64,000 nucleotides of DNA from Actinomycetota bacterium (GTDB lineage Bacteria; Actinomycetota; Actinomycetes; Nanopelagicales; Nanopelagicaceae), in the NCBI GenBank assembly GCA_009699205.1, contig WLOP01000001.1:124001-188000 (forward strand), given 5' to 3'. Positions within the stretch are counted from its first letter, which is position 1. Every line of letters starts with the position of its first letter. This document shows positions 27,051 through 36,594 of the stretch, one piece after another. The notes beneath the pieces were generated by a model. That model did not search any database and was not told the DNA's origin. It worked only from the letters and a program-made list of their open reading frames with translations. The translations under genes were made by a program, and so were the position numbers.

Positions 27051-27064
27051 AAGCTTAGTAAATA

Positions 27065-27094
27065 ACCCCCGTCAGGAAACTGGCGGGGGTTTTT
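27065..27094 (+). terminator. Rho-independent terminator after glnA
   Basis: ACCCCCGTCAG and CTGGCGGGGGT form an 11-bp stem with one G-U pair and a GAAA loop, followed by TTTTT. It lies 14 bases past the glnA stop and could also act on the convergent PTS operon, which ends at 27109. Confidence 0.95.
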
Positions 27095-27108: not shown

Positions 27109-28785
27109 TCAGCTCCCTATAACTTTTTCTCTGGCAGCCGCTGCGCTGGTAGCTGACAAAGCAATAAGAGCCAACTTTTGAGCATCGGCCAAAGAATGTT
27201 TGGACAATTCTGCTCTTACATCTACTAATGCCGCTGGAGCCATTGAGAGCGTAGTAGCTCCTAGCCCCACAAGGACAACTGCAAGCAAAGGATCTGAAGC
27301 TGCCTCACCGCAAACACCTACAGGTTTACCTACATGAGTTCCCGCATCGCCAATCAATTTGATAAGGCGTAGAACTGCAGGATGCCATGGGTTTTGATAC
27401 GAGGCAGTTGTATTCAATTCGCGGTCGGCAGCCATGGTGTACTGCGTAAGGTCATTTGTTCCGATGCTAACGAAATCAGCTTCTGCAAGAATTTGTTCTG
27501 CGACTAAGGCTGATGAAGGAATTTCTGCCATAACACCAACAGTTTTGAGGCCATATTCCTTGGCAATTTTTGTGAAATACGCCGTTTCGGCGGCATCTGC
27601 AACCATAGGCGCCATGACCCAAAGATCAGCATCGGTCTCTTGATCTGCTTTTGCGAGTGCCTCCAATTGTTGGCGCATAATATTTTCTGCACGACGCATC
27701 GCGCGCAAACCACGTATACCAAGTGCAGGATTTCCTTCATTGTCTTGTTGCAAAAATGCAAGAGGTTTATCGGCTCCCGCATCGAGAGTTCTGACGACAA
27801 CTTTCTTTCCTGGGAACGATGCCAATAGGCGACGATAATCTTCTGTTTGCGATTCTAAACTTGGTGCGCTCTGTTCATCGAGGAAGAGGAATTCAGTGCG
27901 GAACAACCCAACTCCTTCGGCGCCTAAAGTTACAGCAGCCTCTATCTCATCTAAGGAACCCAAATTGGCAAGGAGTGGGATACGAGTTCCATCCGAGAGC
28001 TCACCAGGCGTTAAAGGGGCTACAACATCTTTCTGAGTTAATTGTCGTTCGCGTGCATTGGCTAATTCAATATCTGTAGGTTCAAGATAAATGCAACTAG
28101 CAGCGGCATCGATAATTACTTGCGCACCCGTAGAGATCGATTCAGCGCCATGTGCGGCAACAATTGCTACTAACCCTTTGGATCTTGCCAAGATTGCTGT
28201 ATGGGCCGTGGGTCCTCCGCCGCTTGTAACTAACGCCAGAATCTTTGAAAGATCCAACATGGCTGTATCTGCAGGAGCAAGATCATTTGCTACCAAAATA
28301 AAAGGATGGTCAGAATTTGGAATACCAGGTGCAGGGACACCTATGAGATGGGCAATCACGCGATGCGCTACATCATCTAGGTCTGCTGCACGTTCGGCCA
28401 TATAGCCGCCCATCTGCAATAGAGCACTCTGGAAATTTCTGAATGCTTCAAAAACTGCCCGTTCAGCAGTCTTACCGGCTTCTATAAGGGAACGAACATC
28501 GTCAAGAACTGTGGGATCGCCGACGATGAGACTTTCGGCAACTAAAACATCTTGTGCTTCTCCACCTACGAGCGCACCTCGCCTTACCAACTCAGCTGCA
28601 GTAGCAGCAACAGATTCTTCTACGCGTTTGATCTCATCGGAAACCGAAGCAGTTCGACGTAAATCCTGAGGATCTTCAATGGGATCGGGCATGCGAATAA
28701 CAGAGCCGATCGCAATCCCTCGACCAATACCTATTCCGCTGATTCGACTAGTGATGCTCTGTCCCTTCATCCAATTCTTTGGCAA
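27109..28785 (-). CDS. ptsI: PTS enzyme I (phosphoenolpyruvate-protein phosphotransferase)
   Basis: A 558-residue EI that passes phosphate from PEP to HPr. The phospho-His is in SGGGPTAHTAILARS (His195), the PEP site in FRTEFLFLD, and the catalytic Cys in GVCGEAASDP. Length is normal for EI. The N-terminus ISGIGIGRGIAIG fits the family; the start may be 28785 or Met6 at 28770, both overlapping ptsH. Last gene of a ten-gene leftward operon with HPr and a mannose-family enzyme II. Having EI and HPr inside the EII operon suggests that the phosphorelay serves mainly this transporter. Confidence 0.95.
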   Translation of the reverse strand: MPKNWMKGQSITSRISGIGIGRGIAIGSVIRMPDPIEDPQDLRRTASVSDEIKRVEESVAATAAELVRRGALVGGEAQDVLVAESLIVGDPTVLDDVRSLIEAGKTAERAVFEAFRNFQSALLQMGGYMAERAADLDDVAHRVIAHLIGVPAPGIPNSDHPFILVANDLAPADTAMLDLSKILALVTSGGGPTAHTAILARSKGLVAIVAAHGAESISTGAQVIIDAAASCIYLEPTDIELANARERQLTQKDVVAPLTPGELSDGTRIPLLANLGSLDEIEAAVTLGAEGVGLFRTEFLFLDEQSAPSLESQTEDYRRLLASFPGKKVVVRTLDAGADKPLAFLQQDNEGNPALGIRGLRAMRRAENIMRQQLEALAKADQETDADLWVMAPMVADAAETAYFTKIAKEYGLKTVGVMAEIPSSALVAEQILAEADFVSIGTNDLTQYTMAADRELNTTASYQNPWHPAVLRLIKLIGDAGTHVGKPVGVCGEAASDPLLAVVLVGLGATTLSMAPAALVDVRAELSKHSLADAQKLALIALSATSAAAAREKVIGS

Positions 28786-29053
28786 TCAAATCAGCCATCA
28801 CTTTGACATCGTCCTGTGCGCTCTCACCTACGGCACGCAGAATTATTCGATCGCCTTGATGTATGCCGCCCGTAAGTAACGACATGATGCTTCGGGCATT
28901 TATCACTGGTCCGTCATCTTTTTGGATGGTGATAGCAGCTTGCAACTTGCTCGCTGTTTGGACGACTATTGCAGCAGGCCTTGCATGAAGACCTGCTGCT
29001 GAGCCAACAACTACTTCGCACATTGCACTGAGTGCTGCACTCGAATCGGGCAT
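28748..29053 (-). CDS. ptsH: PTS phosphocarrier protein HPr
   Basis: A 101-residue HPr with the phospho-His in AGLHARPAA (His23) and the regulatory-serine region INARSIMSLLTGGI (Ser55). It is about ten residues longer at the N-terminus than usual, so Met11 (29023) is an alternative start; a GAAAGG site 10 bases before 29053 favours the longer form. It overlaps ptsI and accepts phosphate from it for IIA at 35873. Conservation of the serine could point to HPr-kinase-type control, but no such kinase is in the window. Confidence 0.93.
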   Translation of the reverse strand: MPDSSAALSAMCEVVVGSAAGLHARPAAIVVQTASKLQAAITIQKDDGPVINARSIMSLLTGGIHQGDRIILRAVGESAQDDVKVMADLIAKELDEGTEHH

Positions 29054-29074
29054 ACGTATTTAACCTTTCGTAAA

Positions 29075-30559
29075 CTAGATGCGAGTGGGATTAATGCGCG
29101 TGAAGATATTCTTAGTTTGGAGGTACTTTTCAATACCTACAGCGCCAAGTCCACTGTGTTTGTAACCTCCGGATGGAGCTTGCAAAACACCGGGAGCAAA
29201 CCACTGATTGATATAAACCTGTCCCGCTTGCAGCGCATTAGCCACTACTGCCGCTCGATTGAGGTCTTGGGTGAAAACACCTGCTGATAAACCGAAATTT
29301 GAACCATTGGCAATTGCCAAAGCTTCATCGATCTCGTCAAAAGGGGTGAGGGTCACTACTGGACCAAATATCTCTTCGCAGGCAATCTCACAGGTGCTGG
29401 CTACATCAGCAAAGACTGTTGGTTTGATAAACCATCCCTTGCTTCTGAAATCATCGGTGTAAGGGGTTCCTCCGGTGAGCAGTTTTCCTTGCTTATTTGC
29501 AATTGCGCTATCGATGTATTCCCAAATCTTCTTGAAATGAGTTTCACCTACAACTGATCCCATGAAATTGGATTCATCTAGTGGATCGCCCACACTGAGT
29601 TTCTCAACATCAGCTACGAATCGTGAAACAAACTCTTCGTAGATTCCGCGCTGAATGAGAATTCTTGAACCGCTGACACAGATTTGACCCGAGTTAGCAA
29701 AAGCCCCCATCACGCTCCACATAAGGGTCGAATCCATATCGGCATCGTTGAGGATGATATTTGGGTTCTTTCCGCCAAGTTCGAGCGAAACAGTTTTGAT
29801 TTGATGAGCAGTATCGCGCAACACTTGAGCACCAGTTTCAACGCTGCCCGTCAAAGAAACCATATCGATATCAGGGTGGGTCGTTAATTGTGCGCCAACT
29901 TTCGAGCCAGAGCCAGGAAGTACCGTCAGCACTCCAGCAGGCAAAAGATCGGCAATTAAACTAGCAAGATAAGTGAAAGATACTGATGCAATTTCAGCTG
30001 GTTTAATAACTGCGACATTTCCGGCAGCCAAGATTGCGGCCATACGTTGCACGCCAGTCCACAGTGGTCCATTCCACGGCAGAACTTCTAGCACCGTTCC
30101 AAAAGGTTCAAGGCGTGAGCGATGGAATACATCAGCGGTCCCCACCTCTTTACTGGTACCAGCTAGATCTTGAGCGCGACCAGCGAAGTAAGAGAGAGAA
30201 TCCAAAGAGATCGGTAAATCGCTATAACGCACGCCTGTCACCGGCTTACCTACATCAATTGCTTCAAGGAATTCGAACTCTTTTTGATGGGATGAAATCG
30301 CATCTGCAATTTGCATCAGAATCTTCGCGCGGTCTTGTCCTGTCATCTTTGACCATGGACCACTTTCACCGGCCTTCTTTGCCGCCGCTACTGCACGATT
30401 GACATCATCTTTGGAAGCAACCGCAATTTTCCCGACAACTTTCTTATCCCGAGGAGAGACCACATCTGTGGTCTCTCCATCGTTAATAAGTTTGCCGTCG
30501 ATAAGCATTGGGAAGGTTTTATCAAAGAGCTCCCAATAGCCACTCGTCTCCGGGGACAT
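29075..30559 (-). CDS. NAD(P)-dependent aldehyde dehydrogenase in the PTS operon
   Basis: A 494-residue ALDH-superfamily enzyme that oxidises an aldehyde to a carboxylate. Seen are the catalytic Cys in ANSGQICVSGSR, the general-base Glu in VSLELGGKNPN, the cofactor-binding VIKPAE and LTGSVETG, and EIFGPVVTL near the C-terminus. It sits 5 bases after the aldolase gene and before ptsH. In this setting it could oxidise the aldehyde released by the aldolase, for example glycolaldehyde, glyceraldehyde or lactaldehyde; the exact substrate is inference. Confidence 0.92.
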   Translation of the reverse strand: MSPETSGYWELFDKTFPMLIDGKLINDGETTDVVSPRDKKVVGKIAVASKDDVNRAVAAAKKAGESGPWSKMTGQDRAKILMQIADAISSHQKEFEFLEAIDVGKPVTGVRYSDLPISLDSLSYFAGRAQDLAGTSKEVGTADVFHRSRLEPFGTVLEVLPWNGPLWTGVQRMAAILAAGNVAVIKPAEIASVSFTYLASLIADLLPAGVLTVLPGSGSKVGAQLTTHPDIDMVSLTGSVETGAQVLRDTAHQIKTVSLELGGKNPNIILNDADMDSTLMWSVMGAFANSGQICVSGSRILIQRGIYEEFVSRFVADVEKLSVGDPLDESNFMGSVVGETHFKKIWEYIDSAIANKQGKLLTGGTPYTDDFRSKGWFIKPTVFADVASTCEIACEEIFGPVVTLTPFDEIDEALAIANGSNFGLSAGVFTQDLNRAAVVANALQAGQVYINQWFAPGVLQAPSGGYKHSGLGAVGIEKYLQTKNIFTRINPTRI

Positions 30560-30564
30560 AACCT

Positions 30565-31332
30565 TTATCCCTTATGTGATTCTGCGATTTTGACAGCATC
30601 TGCTACTGATGCTTTTTCGTGCAAGATGGCAGTAAGCCCGCGAACAACTCCACCTGGGTTCTTTGACGTCCAGATATTTGTTCCAATAGCCACGCCCGCA
30701 ACACCAGCATGGTTGATTGCATCAAATACTTCTTGATACAGCTCACCAAGATTTGCTTTTGCGTGTCCGCCAAGAATGATCACTGGCACAGATGCGTAAT
30801 CAACCACTAGACGCATAGTCTTTGGATCGCCCGTGTAGAAAGTCTTAACGAAATCTGCCCCTGCTTCGGCTGCTACGCGAGCACCAGCTGCGATGATTTC
30901 AGGAGAGCGCATATCGACTCGTGAGAAACCGCCAGGAATTGGCTCGGATAAAAATGGCATTCCGACTGCAGCTGCTTGAGCAGCGATAGCTGCAGAACGA
31001 TTAATGCTGTCATCATCACCGAATGGATAAACCATCGCCTTTACTGCATCCGCCCCAATTGCTCGGGCATGGGCTACTGCATCAGCACCAAATGGAAGCG
31101 CGGTATCGATACTGGTGATAATCGCGGCTCCACCAAATTCCTCTGCATATCGTTCGGAAGATCCAGTTGGTGACAAGAAAGCATCTGCGCCGGCTGCGAC
31201 AGAGGCTTTTACCGTTTCTCCGTATGCAACAAGCCCATCCAGCGGCTTATCTAGGAAGGCGGTATGGTCCATTGCGACAATCAGGATACGTTGATCATCC
31301 CGGAATAGGCGTCGCATTTGTCTTTTCATCAT
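30565..31332 (-). CDS. Class I aldolase of the DeoC/FbaB/LacD superfamily
   Basis: A 255-residue TIM-barrel aldolase. VAMDHTAFLDKPLDG opens the barrel, AVKAMVYPFGDD and the Schiff-base lysine region DFVKTFYTGDP follow, and VIILGGHAK plus GVAIGTNIW form the phosphate-binding end, as in DhnA-type fructose-bisphosphate aldolases and LsrF. It probably cleaves a keto-sugar phosphate made from the PTS product. A strong AAGGAGAA site precedes the ATGATG start. It lies between the dehydrogenase and the aldehyde dehydrogenase, which suggests a path oxidise, cleave, oxidise. Confidence 0.9.
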   Translation of the reverse strand: MMKRQMRRLFRDDQRILIVAMDHTAFLDKPLDGLVAYGETVKASVAAGADAFLSPTGSSERYAEEFGGAAIITSIDTALPFGADAVAHARAIGADAVKAMVYPFGDDDSINRSAAIAAQAAAVGMPFLSEPIPGGFSRVDMRSPEIIAAGARVAAEAGADFVKTFYTGDPKTMRLVVDYASVPVIILGGHAKANLGELYQEVFDAINHAGVAGVAIGTNIWTSKNPGGVVRGLTAILHEKASVADAVKIAESHKG

Positions 31333-31377
31333 TGTAGTTCTCCTTTGTTGTTGTAGGTAAAACTTTTTTAGTTGGGT

Positions 31378-32439
31378 TTATGGTTGAACGATGATGCGAT
31401 AGCAACCTGGGGTTATTGACTGATCTAAAGCTGCTGATAATTTCTCTAACGGGTATCGTCCTTGAATCAAGGGCGATACATCAACCAATCCATATCGGAT
31501 CAATCGAGCGGCAATATAGAAATCTTCTTTTTCAGAAGATAAGACTCCAAGAATCTTCTTCTCGTTGTTGTGCCACTTGTTTGGAGAGATTTCGATAGGT
31601 GTTTCCGGGTGCGCAGAAGCAAAAAGGACCAATGTTCCTCGTTGAGCCAACATTGCAAGACCTTGATCGTTTGCAACCTTGTGACCAATTGCAGTAACAA
31701 CCGTGTCAGCGCCTCGTCCTTCAGTTAGTTCCTTCACGGCTTCGACAGGATCGACAGCAGAGGCATCAATGCAGATATCTGCGCCCATTAATTTCGCCAT
31801 CGCAAGGCGCCCAGCATCAACTTCGGAAACAATTACTCGAGCGCCTCTTTGCTTAAGGGCGAGTACATTCATTAACCCCATGGTGCCAGCACCGATTACA
31901 ACTACATCCGAACTCACTTTTACATCTGCGAGGCGGGCAGCATGCACTGCGCATGAAAGCGGTTCTGTTAACGAAGCAACATCAGCTGCGATATCTCCCA
32001 CAAATGCCAATCCATCGGAAGGATGGATCTTGTATTCAGCGAATCCGCCAGGTCCCCAACCACAATCGTAGGAAACCGACCCTGAATAGTGCCTAGTACA
32101 TACCCGATCTTGATTTGTAAGGCACCAATGACAGGCACCGCACGAAGCTCCTCCCACTGCGACGCGATCGCCTTCTTTGAGAGGCCCGCGATAATCTGGG
32201 CCAAGGGCAACAACTATTCCGGCCGATTCATGGCCGCCAACAAATGGAAATTTATTCTCTTGAGCGCCGCTGTAACTGCGCTGCTCCCACGTACAGATAG
32301 CGGTCGCTTCAATCCGCACGAGCGCTTCACCATATCCCGGTTTCGGCGTTGGTACCTGAACGATGTCGATACCGCCAGGTTTTGTCATTGACCCCACAGC
32401 AAATGTTGCTGGCAGTGGTTGAATAGATGACGTTGTCAT
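31378..32439 (-). CDS. Zinc-dependent medium-chain dehydrogenase (polyol/sorbitol type)
   Basis: A 353-residue MDR-family enzyme. Catalytic zinc ligands are visible in ATAICTWEQ, VGGHESAG and LTEPLSC; the structural zinc site is SCGACHWCLTNQDRVC (four cysteines), and the Rossmann motif is VIGAGTMGLMNVLA. The Glu after His and Glu-Pro in place of the second Cys are typical of polyol dehydrogenases. Overlaps the DMT permease gene by 4 bases. It may oxidise a polyol phosphate delivered by the PTS to a ketose phosphate. AAGGGAGAAG-like spacing before the ATG is seen. Confidence 0.92.
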   Translation of the reverse strand: MTTSSIQPLPATFAVGSMTKPGGIDIVQVPTPKPGYGEALVRIEATAICTWEQRSYSGAQENKFPFVGGHESAGIVVALGPDYRGPLKEGDRVAVGGASCGACHWCLTNQDRVCTRHYSGSVSYDCGWGPGGFAEYKIHPSDGLAFVGDIAADVASLTEPLSCAVHAARLADVKVSSDVVVIGAGTMGLMNVLALKQRGARVIVSEVDAGRLAMAKLMGADICIDASAVDPVEAVKELTEGRGADTVVTAIGHKVANDQGLAMLAQRGTLVLFASAHPETPIEISPNKWHNNEKKILGVLSSEKEDFYIAARLIRYGLVDVSPLIQGRYPLEKLSAALDQSITPGCYRIIVQP

Positions 32440-33419
32440 AACTTCTCCCTATCTATATTTAGATTTTTGTTGAGATATTTCGGACCTAGTTGGCCCAGTA
32501 AAACACCGCCAAGGACAGCGGATGCACCCATGAGGAAAGTTGGTTGGATGCTCTCTCCGAAAACTAACCGCGCTGTAAACAATCCGAACACAAGAACTAA
32601 ACTTAAAATCATTGAAACATTCGCCACGTTAGTGAATTTAACTGCCAAAGTAACCGAAGCGATTGCTAGTGCATTGACGCAACCTGCCCCAAGTAAAACG
32701 GTAACTTGATGAGATGTAATTCCAGGCCAAAGGTTGGCAAAATTTCCGTGAGCTCGGATAAGTACTGCGAGAGCTAATGCGCACACTCCACCAATATTGG
32801 TGATAGCAAGGGCCACGAGAAAAGTCCCGCCCTTCTTCTGTACCGAACGGCTCGCTGCATTACTTATAGTGAAGAAAACGCCAGCTGAAAAACTCACCAC
32901 AAAACCCAAGATCGCCAAGGCGCCTTGATTAATCGAGGAGATAGCTGGAGCCGCGGTGAGCGCTATTCCGCACGCCACAACCGCGATTCCTACTCTCTGC
33001 CAACCCACAGGAGGCTCTTTCATAACGAAAGTTGATATCGCCGCTCCACCTAAAACTAGCCCTCCTTGGCTTGCTGCCACCGCCACTGCTAAGCCCACCC
33101 AATTTAAACCAGCAAAGAGAAGAATGTTGCCAATGCAAAAACTTCCCACTCCAGCTACGAAAAGTAAACGCAAAAGTGGAAGCCCCAAATATTTATCACT
33201 TCTAGGTCGAAGTGAAGTGGGCCGAACGGCCAGAATAAAAATAGTCGCCATGAGAAATAGTGGTATCTGACGAATCAGAGAGCCGACGTAGGGATCTATC
33301 CCTTTTGCAACTGATCGCTGTAAAGCGTTAACAGTTGCGTAAGAGAGAGCTCCGGTAAGGGCGAGTAATTCGCCCTTACCGATAAGACTCCTACGTGCGA
33401 CTCTCTGATTGCGTGTCAT
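32436..33419 (-). CDS. DMT superfamily (EamA-type) permease
   Basis: A 327-residue protein with ten predicted transmembrane helices in two EamA-like halves (GELLALTGALSYATVNAL in the first, ALAILGFVVSFSAGVFFTIS in the second). These proteins export or import metabolites. Its position inside the PTS operon, overlapping the dehydrogenase gene by 4 bases, suggests that it moves a product, perhaps the carboxylate formed by the aldehyde dehydrogenase, or an alternative form of the substrate. This is inference; the sequence does not show the cargo. Confidence 0.88.
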   Translation of the reverse strand: MTRNQRVARRSLIGKGELLALTGALSYATVNALQRSVAKGIDPYVGSLIRQIPLFLMATIFILAVRPTSLRPRSDKYLGLPLLRLLFVAGVGSFCIGNILLFAGLNWVGLAVAVAASQGGLVLGGAAISTFVMKEPPVGWQRVGIAVVACGIALTAAPAISSINQGALAILGFVVSFSAGVFFTISNAASRSVQKKGGTFLVALAITNIGGVCALALAVLIRAHGNFANLWPGITSHQVTVLLGAGCVNALAIASVTLAVKFTNVANVSMILSLVLVFGLFTARLVFGESIQPTFLMGASAVLGGVLLGQLGPKYLNKNLNIDREKL

Positions 33420-33446
33420 TAACTTTGTTTCGTTATCGCCTCACTA

Positions 33447-34397
33447 CTACTTTGCGACCGGATCGGCACAAGGACCATATGGCTGCAAAATTGAAGATCC
33501 GCACTGATCAGTAATCCACTGTGGAGCAGGTCCCATAAATGGAACTGCGCCCAAGATGCAGATAACTAAGTAGATGACAAGGAGCTTGATTGGATGAAGT
33601 CCGCGCTTCAAAATCCACCATGTAAAGAGCACGAAAGCCAATGGCAAAATTCCTGGCATTATCTTGTCAAGGAAATCTTGCTGAGCACGTACTTTTTGAG
33701 CACCGATTTGTACATCGAATGCTAAGTAGATTGTGATGAATTTTGCGGCTAAGCCACCAAGTACCAAGTTACCAAGAACACCAGCACCAACAATTACGCG
33801 ATCTATCAACCCGCTCTTAAATACAGAGGTAACAAGCTTTCGTCCTTGGACGTAACCTTGCATAAAGGAGAAGTAGGTTAATGAGAGGGAGTAAATGGCG
33901 ATCAAGACTAGGAAGAGAATAGGTCCTAGGACATTTCCCTTGATTCCCGTGAGATCACCAGTGGTGTTAGTTGTGCTCAAGCCTGTGATGCTGATACCCA
34001 GAGCAAGAAGCAATGGAAGCACGATGCCTTGAGTAAGGGTGTCGCCTACACCTGCAAGAGGACCCATAAGTCCGCTCTTAGTGGAGTTGATCGCCGTATC
34101 AGTAATAGGCGCTCCATTTGCTTTCTCTTCTTCCATGGCAATCGTAATTCCGTGGATAACAGCTCCAATTTCTGGTTCTGTATTGAAGAAAACAAGGTGG
34201 CGCTTAAGGGCAGCGCGAGTGGCTTCCTTATCGCCGCCGTAGAGGCGTTTGATAATTGGAACCATCGAATGCGCAAAGCCAGTGGCTTGTAGGCGTTCGT
34301 AGTTGTAGTTCGAGTGGGAGAACATCGTCCACAAGAACCAGGACTTCAATAGGTCGCTTCTTGTAATAGAGCGATCTCCTGCTGGTGTATTACTCAT
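33447..34397 (-). CDS. PTS mannose-family IID component
   Basis: A 316-residue IID protein. The N-terminal ITRSDLLKSWFLWTMFSHSNYNYERLQATGFAHSMVPIIK and the middle GLMGPLAGVGDTLTQGIVLPLL are hallmark stretches of ManZ-type subunits (given here only as location guides at residues 10-50 and 110-131). C-terminal helices anchor it. With IIC it forms the membrane channel that takes up sugars and hands them to IIB for phosphorylation. Overlaps IIC by 4 bases. Confidence 0.93.
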   Translation of the reverse strand: MSNTPAGDRSITRSDLLKSWFLWTMFSHSNYNYERLQATGFAHSMVPIIKRLYGGDKEATRAALKRHLVFFNTEPEIGAVIHGITIAMEEEKANGAPITDTAINSTKSGLMGPLAGVGDTLTQGIVLPLLLALGISITGLSTTNTTGDLTGIKGNVLGPILFLVLIAIYSLSLTYFSFMQGYVQGRKLVTSVFKSGLIDRVIVGAGVLGNLVLGGLAAKFITIYLAFDVQIGAQKVRAQQDFLDKIMPGILPLAFVLFTWWILKRGLHPIKLLVIYLVICILGAVPFMGPAPQWITDQCGSSILQPYGPCADPVAK

Positions 34398-35344
34398 TCG
34401 GAACCACCTCCATTAGAAGCTCCTGAGGGTGCTTTCTGGACTGCGTGTTGTGAAACACGATCTCCTAACAATGTGACATGAAGGAAAGCCAGTGCAACTC
34501 CCACAATTGCGAGAACCATGATCGACATCTGAGCGCCACCTGCAACGATTCCAAGATAACCAAGGAAGAAATATGGGGCTGCAGAACCGCGGAAAATGAA
34601 ACGCATATTCATTGCAATACCAATTGCAGGGAGTACGCCTCCGCAGATTGCCAAACCTGACAATAGCCAGATTGGGAAACCATTAATCAGGTCAGTAATG
34701 AATTTAGTTCCAAGGTAAACAAATGTTGTAACTGGAACTGCTGTAATACAAAAGAGGAAAATCTGGGGATACATAATATTGGCTCTAACAACTCCACCAA
34801 TATCTGCTTCGTCAGCTGCTTTATCTGCCATGTGAACGAAGATTGAGTCAACCGTCATTCTTGCATTCCAGATAACTGTTCCGAGAAGACCTAGAGGAAC
34901 AGCAAGTGCTAAAGCTGCTCCATAATTAAGTCCACCGGCCAGTGCGATGGTGGTACCAACCCAACCTGCTAAAGCTGGATCTCCTGGCAACGAACCGCCT
35001 GCGGAGATGAAGCCCAGATAGATAAGGTTGATTGCGGCACCAATCAAGGCGCCTTGACCTGGATCTCCCATGATCAAACCAACGATGAAACCAGCGACCA
35101 ATGGTCGATAGAGTGTAAAGAATCCTAAGCCAACCAACCATGGTGACTGAGACAAGTAATAGCCCAAACCAATGAGGATAGCTTGGATAAGACTGACGCT
35201 TGTGATTTCAGCAGTGGCAACATCTCCACGGGAAAAAGCACTTGCGACACTCGGAAAACCGATTGCCACAATTAGCGTTGATGCAAAAAGAGTTAGCGCC
35301 GTTGCTGCGCGCGAACCCCTTCGCGTCAATGTCGGACGTTTCAT
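34394..35344 (-). CDS. PTS mannose/sorbose-family IIC component with N-terminal extension
   Basis: A 316-residue IIC membrane subunit with about eight to nine helices. Family stretches include QAILIGLGYYLSQSP, PLVAGFIVGLIMGDPGQG and GALIGAAINLIYLGF. The first 45 residues form a basic, signal-peptide-like segment (RRGSRAATALTLFAS to PSVASAFSRG) that is not usual in ManY-type proteins; the core begins near TSVSLIQAIL. A Gly/Ser tail ends the protein. Overlaps both IIB and IID by 4 bases, so the three are translationally coupled. Confidence 0.92.
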   Translation of the reverse strand: MKRPTLTRRGSRAATALTLFASTLIVAIGFPSVASAFSRGDVATAEITSVSLIQAILIGLGYYLSQSPWLVGLGFFTLYRPLVAGFIVGLIMGDPGQGALIGAAINLIYLGFISAGGSLPGDPALAGWVGTTIALAGGLNYGAALALAVPLGLLGTVIWNARMTVDSIFVHMADKAADEADIGGVVRANIMYPQIFLFCITAVPVTTFVYLGTKFITDLINGFPIWLLSGLAICGGVLPAIGIAMNMRFIFRGSAAPYFFLGYLGIVAGGAQMSIMVLAIVGVALAFLHVTLLGDRVSQHAVQKAPSGASNGGGSE

Positions 35345-35841
35345 AACACGCTCCTTGCTGCTTGGGCAAGATCGAGAGAGGCAAAGGCAACGGGAGAATC
35401 ATCAGCAACGATGCGTATTTCTACTTTCGTTCCCAAATCTTCTAGAGTGTTCATAGCCGCGACCTCGGAGTCACTTGCGGATATATTTTTGTAGAGCTTT
35501 TTGCGGTCTGCTGCCGCCCCAATACCGCCGACGTTGAGAACCGGCAGACTGAGGCCATTCTTAACTAGTGCTAACGCAGTTAGGGGGCTGCGCATGAGGA
35601 GAAATATTTTCTTTGGCGATTGCGCTAACTCTTTCAAGCGCGGGACAGAATCAGCAGCCGAATAAACCTCGACCGATACTCCTGGGGGACCCGCAAATTG
35701 CAAGAGCTCAGATAAGAACTCATCTGCTGCTGTTTCATCATCGGCGATCACAATGATCTCCGGCGATAGCTTTCGTAGCCAGACAGCAATTACCTGTCCA
35801 TGAATCAATCGATCATCTACTCTGGCCAAACTAAGCACCAT
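35341..35841 (-). CDS. PTS mannose-family IIB component
   Basis: A 166-residue cytosolic IIB with the phosphorylated histidine in LARVDDRLIHGQVIAVW (His14), the family signature. It accepts phosphate from IIA and gives it to the incoming substrate. Encoded as a separate protein rather than fused to IIA. Overlaps IIC by 4 bases and lies 31 bases after IIA. Confidence 0.94.
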   Translation of the reverse strand: MVLSLARVDDRLIHGQVIAVWLRKLSPEIIVIADDETAADEFLSELLQFAGPPGVSVEVYSAADSVPRLKELAQSPKKIFLLMRSPLTALALVKNGLSLPVLNVGGIGAAADRKKLYKNISASDSEVAAMNTLEDLGTKVEIRIVADDSPVAFASLDLAQAARSVL

Positions 35842-35872
35842 TTAGATCTCCTCTTTGAGATTTAATTAAGGC

Positions 35873-36271
35873 TTACTGCGTACTCGTTTCTTCACAACGA
35901 TGACGTAATACTCCTTTGGATATATCTAGCGCGCGTTCGATTATGGGGAGGTCGATTTCCTCTTCACACATCGCTAGTTCGATAAGAAGTGGCAGCGAAA
36001 CTCCAGCCAGTACCCACTTTGATGGGAACTGTTTGGCAAGCACATTGATCACGTTGTCGGGCGTTCCGCCAACCAGATCAGTGATTACTAGATGGGGCGC
36101 TTGTGTTGCATAGGCCGCGAGAACTCGCTCACGGAAAGCGCTGGGTGATTCTTCGGGTTGCAGACCCAAAGTCGAGACATGAGAAAGGGAGCCACATATG
36201 AGACGAGCGCTAGCTAGAAGCGCTTCAGGGAAATCTCCGTGCCCCACGACCAAAATTTGGTGCGTAGCCAT
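35873..36271 (-). CDS. PTS mannose-family IIA component
   Basis: A 132-residue IIA with the phospho-His in VVGHGDFPEALLAS (His11) and the dimer-type fold ending in VITDLVGGTPDNVINVLA and VLAGVSLPLLIELA. It receives phosphate from HPr. First gene of the ten-gene PTS operon. The ATG at 36271 follows GGAGAAAGAGGG. A promoter and repeat elements lie upstream at 36295-36359. Confidence 0.94.
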   Translation of the reverse strand: MATHQILVVGHGDFPEALLASARLICGSLSHVSTLGLQPEESPSAFRERVLAAYATQAPHLVITDLVGGTPDNVINVLAKQFPSKWVLAGVSLPLLIELAMCEEEIDLPIIERALDISKGVLRHRCEETSTQ

Positions 36272-36294
36272 CTACCCTCTTTCTCCTACCGTCG

Positions 36295-36359
36295 CCTTGA
36301 TAAAAAATCAATCTTGGTTTCGGTAAAGAAACAGTCGCACTCGATCAAGGTGATGTCAA
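36295..36359 (-). promoter_or_regulatory. Likely promoter and operator region of the PTS operon
   Basis: On the minus strand a perfect TTGACA (-35) lies at 36359-36354; 17 bases on is a weak GACTGT -10. CCTTGAT occurs between these elements and again as its inverted copy nearer the gene (36344-36350 and 36295-36301), and TTGAT-AAAAA-ATCAA (36297-36311) is a perfect 15-base palindrome just before the ribosome binding site. Such placement fits a repressor operator. No regulator gene is next to the operon. Confidence 0.5.
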
Positions 36360-36594
36360 TATTACTCATCAGTATTTAATTTAGGAGAAGGGGCTATCCC
36401 TCATATATTGCAAAACACGTAAGCAATTTTGCGAAAACTCTTTATTTCTTACCCCGGTCGTGTAACTCTATGGCCCTCACATTGTGAGTGAAAAGAACAA
36501 CACTTAAGCCCCGACTCCCCGTATGGGTTGGGGCTTAAGTGTGCTTAAAGGGCCCAAAAGCATTGAATACGGGCGCTTCTTATATCCTTCTCCT
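36360..36594. other. Intergenic region between divergent PTS operon and nhaA with unexplained hairpins
   Basis: No protein gene is seen here. It holds CTCACA-T-TGTGAG (36476-36488), a 13-bp inverted repeat with arms ACACTTAAGCCCC and GGGGCTTAAGTGT (36500-36512 and 36530-36542), and GCAAAA/TTTTGC arms near 36410-36432. No T tract follows the large hairpin on the plus strand; the minus side reads GTTGTTCTTTTC. The nhaA promoter element TATCCT is at 36583-36588. Confidence 0.6.

Follow-up and report, generated by a model that had tools for sequence, protein, structure and literature searches.

The window analysed here is a stretch of 64,000 nucleotides of actinobacterial DNA. Its minus strand carries ten open, co-directional genes forming a coding block from 27109 to 36271. 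Read from 36271 towards 27109, they encode IIA, IIB, IIC and IID of a PTS, a DMT permease, a zinc dehydrogenase, an aldolase, an aldehyde dehydrogenase (ALDH), HPr and EI (Table 1). The initial annotation had described ten genes in the same direction, had assigned each of them to a family and had stated that no sugar kinase or isomerase lies among them. The open frames, all on the minus strand, agree with the first of these statements, the Pfam and NCBIfam matches confirmed the families, and neither the gene list nor these matches contained a sugar kinase or an isomerase. The span originally given, 27109–36359, is right at its start but not at its end, as coding stops at 36271 and the remainder is about 90 bases of upstream DNA.

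Table 1. Features of the ten-gene block and its borders (positions are those of the window)
Feature	Position	Strand	Remarks
PTS IIA, mannose class	35873..36271	-	PF03610; phospho-accepting His11
PTS IIB, sorbose subfamily	35341..35841	-	PF03830; His14
PTS IIC, EII-Sor	34394..35344	-	PF03609; sole EII-Sor found in genome
PTS IID	33447..34397	-	PF03613; not in the other 295 family genomes searched
DMT/EamA permease	32436..33419	-	PF00892
Zinc-dependent medium-chain dehydrogenase	31378..32439	-	PF08240 and PF00107; signature CTWEQR
Class I aldolase, DhnA/ADH-synthase group	30565..31332	-	PF01791; Schiff-base K163
Aldehyde dehydrogenase, broad betaine/aminobutyraldehyde-type group	29075..30559	-	PF00171; C294, E260
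HPr	28748..29053	-	PF00381; His23; sole HPr found in genome
PTS enzyme I	27109..28785	-	TIGR01417 above cut-off; His195, Cys492; sole EI found in genome
Intergenic region, presumed operon promoter	36272..36522	.	SorC gene absent here, unlike in relatives
Strong terminator-like hairpin	27064..27091	+	Between glnA (+) and the end of EI (-)

The genes are tightly packed. Three junctions (IIB/IIC, IIC/IID and that of the permease with the dehydrogenase) are 4-base overlaps, HPr and EI overlap by 38 bases when the EI start is taken as called (TTG), and the remaining gaps measure 5–45 bases. Because of these small gaps and overlaps, the ten genes are likely to form a single transcript. A scan for sigma-70-like promoters was uninformative, returning no site, fewer than in shuffled sequences. 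The 251-base gap 36272–36522 contains short inverted repeats (36292–36301 and 36344–36353, 90%), which could serve as an operator for a regulator other than SorC.

The PTS belongs to the mannose class: IIA, IIB, IIC and IID are separate proteins, all above the Pfam gathering score, and the relay from EI through HPr to the phospho-accepting histidines of IIA and IIB is complete, with every phosphorelay residue intact. In the genome (17 contigs totalling 1.42 Mb, 96% complete), a single HPr, a single EI N-terminal domain and a single EII-Sor were found, and all three belong to the block. As the assembly is not closed, a small chance of a further copy remains. The operon had been described as having its own EI and HPr; they are indeed there, and are more precisely the sole EI and HPr that the genome was found to contain. 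Because none of HPr, EI and EII-Sor turned up more than once, we rejected the idea of a second PTS beside a general one. EII-Sor was not found in any other genome among 119 relatives, and the search of the wider family for IID gave the same picture (Table 1). Some HPr is present in about half of the genus, so it is the EII-Sor type, and not the PTS in general, that is foreign to it. Judging from genome size and relatives, the host may be a streamlined aquatic actinobacterium.

The block is situated between glnA and nhaA. Four relatives without the block keep the order of glnA, nhaA and an NCS1 permease gene, and in three of them the next gene, for an ABC protein, is kept as well. Since the flanking order is conserved and the GC3 of the block is similar to that of the neighbouring genes, the possibility of a contaminant contig was rejected. 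Three of the four cassette-free relatives have other genes between glnA and nhaA; with the flanks kept where the cassette is missing, this identifies the slot as a variable site. By eye, the slots of L159 (9108–11155), L161 and L164 hold two genes resembling a cytochrome b-type pair, of 205 and 311 aa, and that of L164 has an additional amino-acid-permease-like gene. No ORF of at least 70 aa was seen in the slot of L162. In a six-gene tree the supports around the window genome were 42 and 51, and neither its place nor the direction of transfer is settled.

The initial annotation had proposed a comparison of operon content in related genomes. A search with the aldolase led to three MAGs assigned to Microbacteriaceae (L030), Micrococcales (L031) and Homoserinimonas (L032), each with the ten genes in the same order, and when 400 genomes from the family of G199 were searched, the set grew to a total of seven cassette-type genomes; one distant aldolase was found besides. 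The ten-gene order is complete in six of these seven relatives and the seventh has nine genes in order, at protein identities of about 40–72%. Such recurrence is well beyond chance. In G199, G200 and G201 the HPr of the cassette is the only one found. Its EI is likewise the only one found in these three genomes and in G513, whereas G392 and G563 have others. A 1.4-Mb Microbacteriaceae-type genome, G230, has a second IIA-like gene (1161–1544 of locus L063) at the usual place of EI, and the one EI of this genome is on a different contig. In all seven Microbacteriaceae-type genomes there is a divergent regulator gene whose product is a homologue of the SorC-type protein of L032; Pfam confirmed PF04198 on the L032 copy. 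No SorC regulator was found in the window genome, including the region 36272–36522. Viral carriage of the aldolase was searched for and none was found; plasmid-borne aldolases were distant ones only (about 30–33%). From the shared gene order, the ten-gene block appears to be a portable unit common to a few unrelated bacteria.

None of the dehydrogenase, the aldolase, the ALDH and the permease reached an NCBIfam equivalog cut-off. The dehydrogenase has the catalytic zinc positions (C49, H70/E71, E159) and the structural cysteines (C100/103/106/114) of the polyol/sorbitol type, and the acidic end of strand beta-2 points to NAD as its cofactor. Threonine and sorbitol dehydrogenases are among its nearest solved structures; the top NCBIfam scores were those of threonine dehydrogenase models, far under the cut-off. 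The motif CTWEQR replaces the usual CGTD at the catalytic-cysteine region in 14 of 15 aligned cassette-type dehydrogenases, the fifteenth (L103) being truncated, and is a possible marker of a cassette-type subfamily. The ALDH keeps its active-site cysteine and glutamate (Table 1), and no SlaB-named model occurs among the 25 NCBIfam matches listed for it. The DMT gene is retained in all seven Microbacteriaceae cassettes and is also present near the Chloroflexi loci L100, L103 and L104.

The aldolase is of class I, with the PF01791 TIM barrel and an invariant Lys163. Its AlphaFold model is a confident barrel (mean pLDDT 90), and the closest structures are those of the ADH synthase of M. jannaschii (MJ0400) with DHAP or FBP, followed by the FBP aldolase of T. 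tenax and then LsrF. Identity in the structural alignment is about 33% to MJ0400 and 26–27% to the T. tenax enzyme; sulfosugar and LacD aldolases follow far down the list at 14–17%. The general base, phosphate ligands and Schiff-base lysine of LsrF are Asp57, His58, Lys203, Gly226, Gly227, Gly253 and Arg254 (PMC2728841), which align with Asp22, His23, Lys163, Gly188, Gly189, Gly217 and Thr218 of the window aldolase. Thus the base Asp22, the phosphate contacts His23, Gly188, Gly189 and Gly217 and the Schiff-base Lys163 are conserved, and the phosphate-contacting arginine is replaced by Thr218. All eight actinobacterial cassette members and three close Chloroflexi sequences have Thr at this position; four others have Asn, and the remaining sequences listed have Arg. 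The catalytic tyrosine of the T. tenax aldolase and MJ0400, thought to be the proton donor, is also replaced, by Ile132; most relatives have Val, Leu or Ile here, and LsrF likewise is without the tyrosine (PMC2728841). Glu130, invariant in an alignment of 13 sequences, may take over proton transfer from the missing tyrosine.

The aldolase scored 130 bits against TIGR01949 (2-amino-3,7-dideoxy-D-threo-hept-6-ulosonate synthase; equivalog cut-off 299) and 74.8 bits against the LsrF thiolase model PRK08227 (cut-off 297). With both scores under the cut-offs, membership in the ADH-synthase and in the LsrF/AI-2 families was rejected. Sequence and model together make it likely that a phosphorylated ketose is cleaved with DHAP as a product. 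A DHAP-type reaction is not certain, because both the arginine and the tyrosine are replaced.

We also looked at the aldolase group in 400 genomes of the phylum of an Anaerolineae MAG (G203), the Chloroflexi, where it is common, and examined 30 neighbourhoods. These loci were picked by aldolase similarity and not at random, and several contigs are short, so that the absence of a gene is weak evidence. Many of the 30 neighbourhoods have the dehydrogenase and aldolase genes together, with varying partners. L100 has the dehydrogenase–aldolase–ALDH triad beside IIB, IIC, IID and the DMT gene; two further triads are present in L101 and L102, and in L103 the triad has a DMT gene next to it, as well as the end of a frame that by eye is IID-like. 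PTS genes are found in L099 and L104 together with an aldehyde:ferredoxin oxidoreductase that replaces the ALDH (families confirmed). The PTS of L104 and that of L123 are accompanied by HPr and EI. In L106, L107, L110, L111 and the actinobacterial L064 the PTS is replaced by an FGGY kinase, confirmed by Pfam for L107 and L064, and in L034 the dehydrogenase–aldolase pair occurs with an ABC importer and a xylose-isomerase-like protein. In L104 (4590–7890), the PTS/aldolase genes are separated from the oxidoreductase gene by genes for a corrinoid-binding protein and an MttB-family methyltransferase and by an ornithine-cyclodeaminase-like gene. Related aldolases in the Chloroflexi loci L108, L109 and L120 are accompanied by an RbsB-like ABC importer, an FGGY kinase and a D-lyxose-isomerase-like gene, and would represent another pathway of the same aldolase group.

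The initial annotation had proposed a sequence of phosphorylation, oxidation, cleavage and aldehyde oxidation. This scheme gains from the exchange of the PTS for an FGGY kinase and of the ALDH for an aldehyde:ferredoxin oxidoreductase, which support a phosphorylated substrate and the oxidation of an aldehyde, and from the similarity of the aldolase model to structures with DHAP or FBP; the two replaced active-site residues weaken it. Among these points the partner swaps, which are neighbourhood evidence, give it the best support. PEP would phosphorylate EI and then HPr, IIA and IIB in turn, and IIC/IID would take up a sugar alcohol or similar polyhydroxy compound and phosphorylate it. The zinc dehydrogenase would oxidize the phosphorylated product with NAD to a ketose phosphate, which the aldolase would cleave via a Schiff base on Lys163, most likely to DHAP and a short aldehyde. 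The ALDH would convert the aldehyde to a carboxylic acid, and this acid may exit through the DMT permease. We infer the order of reactions, the carbon positions, for which the initial annotation had proposed C1 (phosphorylation) and C2 (oxidation), DHAP, the export and the substrate. That the block is a portable, self-sufficient catabolic PTS cassette performing import with phosphorylation, oxidation, aldol cleavage and aldehyde oxidation is, in our judgement, rather probable.

Enterobacterial galactitol and sorbose operons (GatABC/GatD; SorFBAM/SorE with SorC) likewise combine a PTS with a zinc dehydrogenase that acts on the phosphorylated product. The sorbose operon is laid out with a SorC-family regulator, a sorbose/mannose-class PTS and a zinc dehydrogenase, and SorE reduces L-sorbose 1-phosphate in Klebsiella. 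The cassette could work in a similar way: the imported substrate would already be a ketose, yielding a ketose 1-phosphate, and the dehydrogenase would be a reductase or would adjust the stereochemistry by oxidation–reduction epimerisation before aldol cleavage. The cassettes of the relatives fit this, as they pair a divergent SorC-family regulator with the same class of PTS and a zinc dehydrogenase. However, no SorE-type family is among the dehydrogenase matches listed, the block is without a SorD-like second dehydrogenase, and the dehydrogenase–aldolase pair was found with FGGY kinases and an ABC importer as well, so that we regard a sorbose-like route as unlikely. The enterobacterial galactitol and sorbose systems supply hexose 6-phosphates, depend on the general EI and HPr of the host and have no aldehyde dehydrogenase; unlike them, the cassette carries EI, HPr and an ALDH. 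Signal consumption is a much more remote option, which we consider very improbable: the aldolase, being related to LsrF, would have a dione phosphate, of the AI-2 type or another, as its substrate, and the operon would remove a signal molecule rather than a nutrient. The substrate would be phosphorylated by the PTS, and LsrR, like the regulator of the relatives, belongs to the SorC family. But the LsrF score is about half that of the ADH-synthase subfamily model (74.8 vs 153.2 bits), LsrG and LsrK are missing from the block, and the dehydrogenase and ALDH, always present, are not needed for AI-2.

Two further known routes share parts of the proposed pathway. The degradation of L-fucose and L-rhamnose employs a kinase, a ketose-1-phosphate aldolase and the aldehyde dehydrogenase AldA, so that, as proposed for the cassette, a phosphorylated ketose gives DHAP and an aldehyde that is oxidized to an acid; its aldolase is of class II, and an isomerase and a kinase take the place of the PTS and dehydrogenase. 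The ydj cluster of E. coli (YdjI aldolase, YdjH kinase and zinc dehydrogenases) also joins a dehydrogenase, phosphorylation and aldol cleavage, but with a class II aldolase, a kinase for the PTS and an aldehyde that is probably reduced and not oxidized. That a ketose 1-phosphate can be processed by a class I aldolase, aldehyde oxidation and export in actinobacteria is known from the oxidative sulfo-EMP pathway of Arthrobacter, with a YihV/YihT-type kinase and class I aldolase, SlaB and an exporter (PMC12890257). The cassette resembles this pathway in the proposed cleavage to DHAP and an aldehyde that is oxidized and exported, and differs from it in that the PTS would supply the phosphate, there is an additional polyol-type dehydrogenase, and the aldolase lies on another branch of PF01791 and is not of the YihT (LacD-like) type. 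The cassette might serve a substrate with a group that makes half of it unusable, such as a sulfonate or deoxy end, keeping DHAP and exporting the oxidized odd aldehyde through the DMT permease as in oxidative sulfoglycolysis. Apart from the Arthrobacter precedent, in which SlaB is an oxidising SLA dehydrogenase, the presence of the ALDH and a permease in one operon and of a DMT gene near the oxidoreductase in L104 speaks for this. We nevertheless judge it improbable, given an aldolase on the ADH-synthase/DhnA side with its low identity to sulfosugar and LacD aldolases, the fact that no sulfonate-specific gene was seen, and the extra dehydrogenase step, which sulfo-EMP does not have. The nearest solved structures, MJ0400 and the T. 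tenax aldolase, both retain the active-site arginine and tyrosine that are replaced in the cassette aldolase.

Returning to the catabolic cassette, no description of a cluster of this kind was found in the one literature library searched. PTS permeases normally rely on a general EI and HPr encoded elsewhere. The unusual point here is a mobile unit bearing its entire PTS relay: with its own energy-coupling proteins the block can work in cells without another PTS, and such a cassette can open PTS nutrition to streamlined lineages that have no PTS. More tentatively, and at somewhat less than even confidence, we propose a hitherto undescribed catabolic pathway for a phytoplankton- or plant-derived polyol or modified sugar, with a new aldolase subfamily (signature EP[IV]PGGF...GTN), carried on a mobile unit of ten genes by which genomes with no PTS gain a complete one. 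The comparative set, with either a PTS or a kinase and either an ALDH or a ferredoxin-dependent oxidoreductase, provides a short list of enzymes to assay, and the cassette would represent a new sugar-acid pathway whose range of substrates can be tested.
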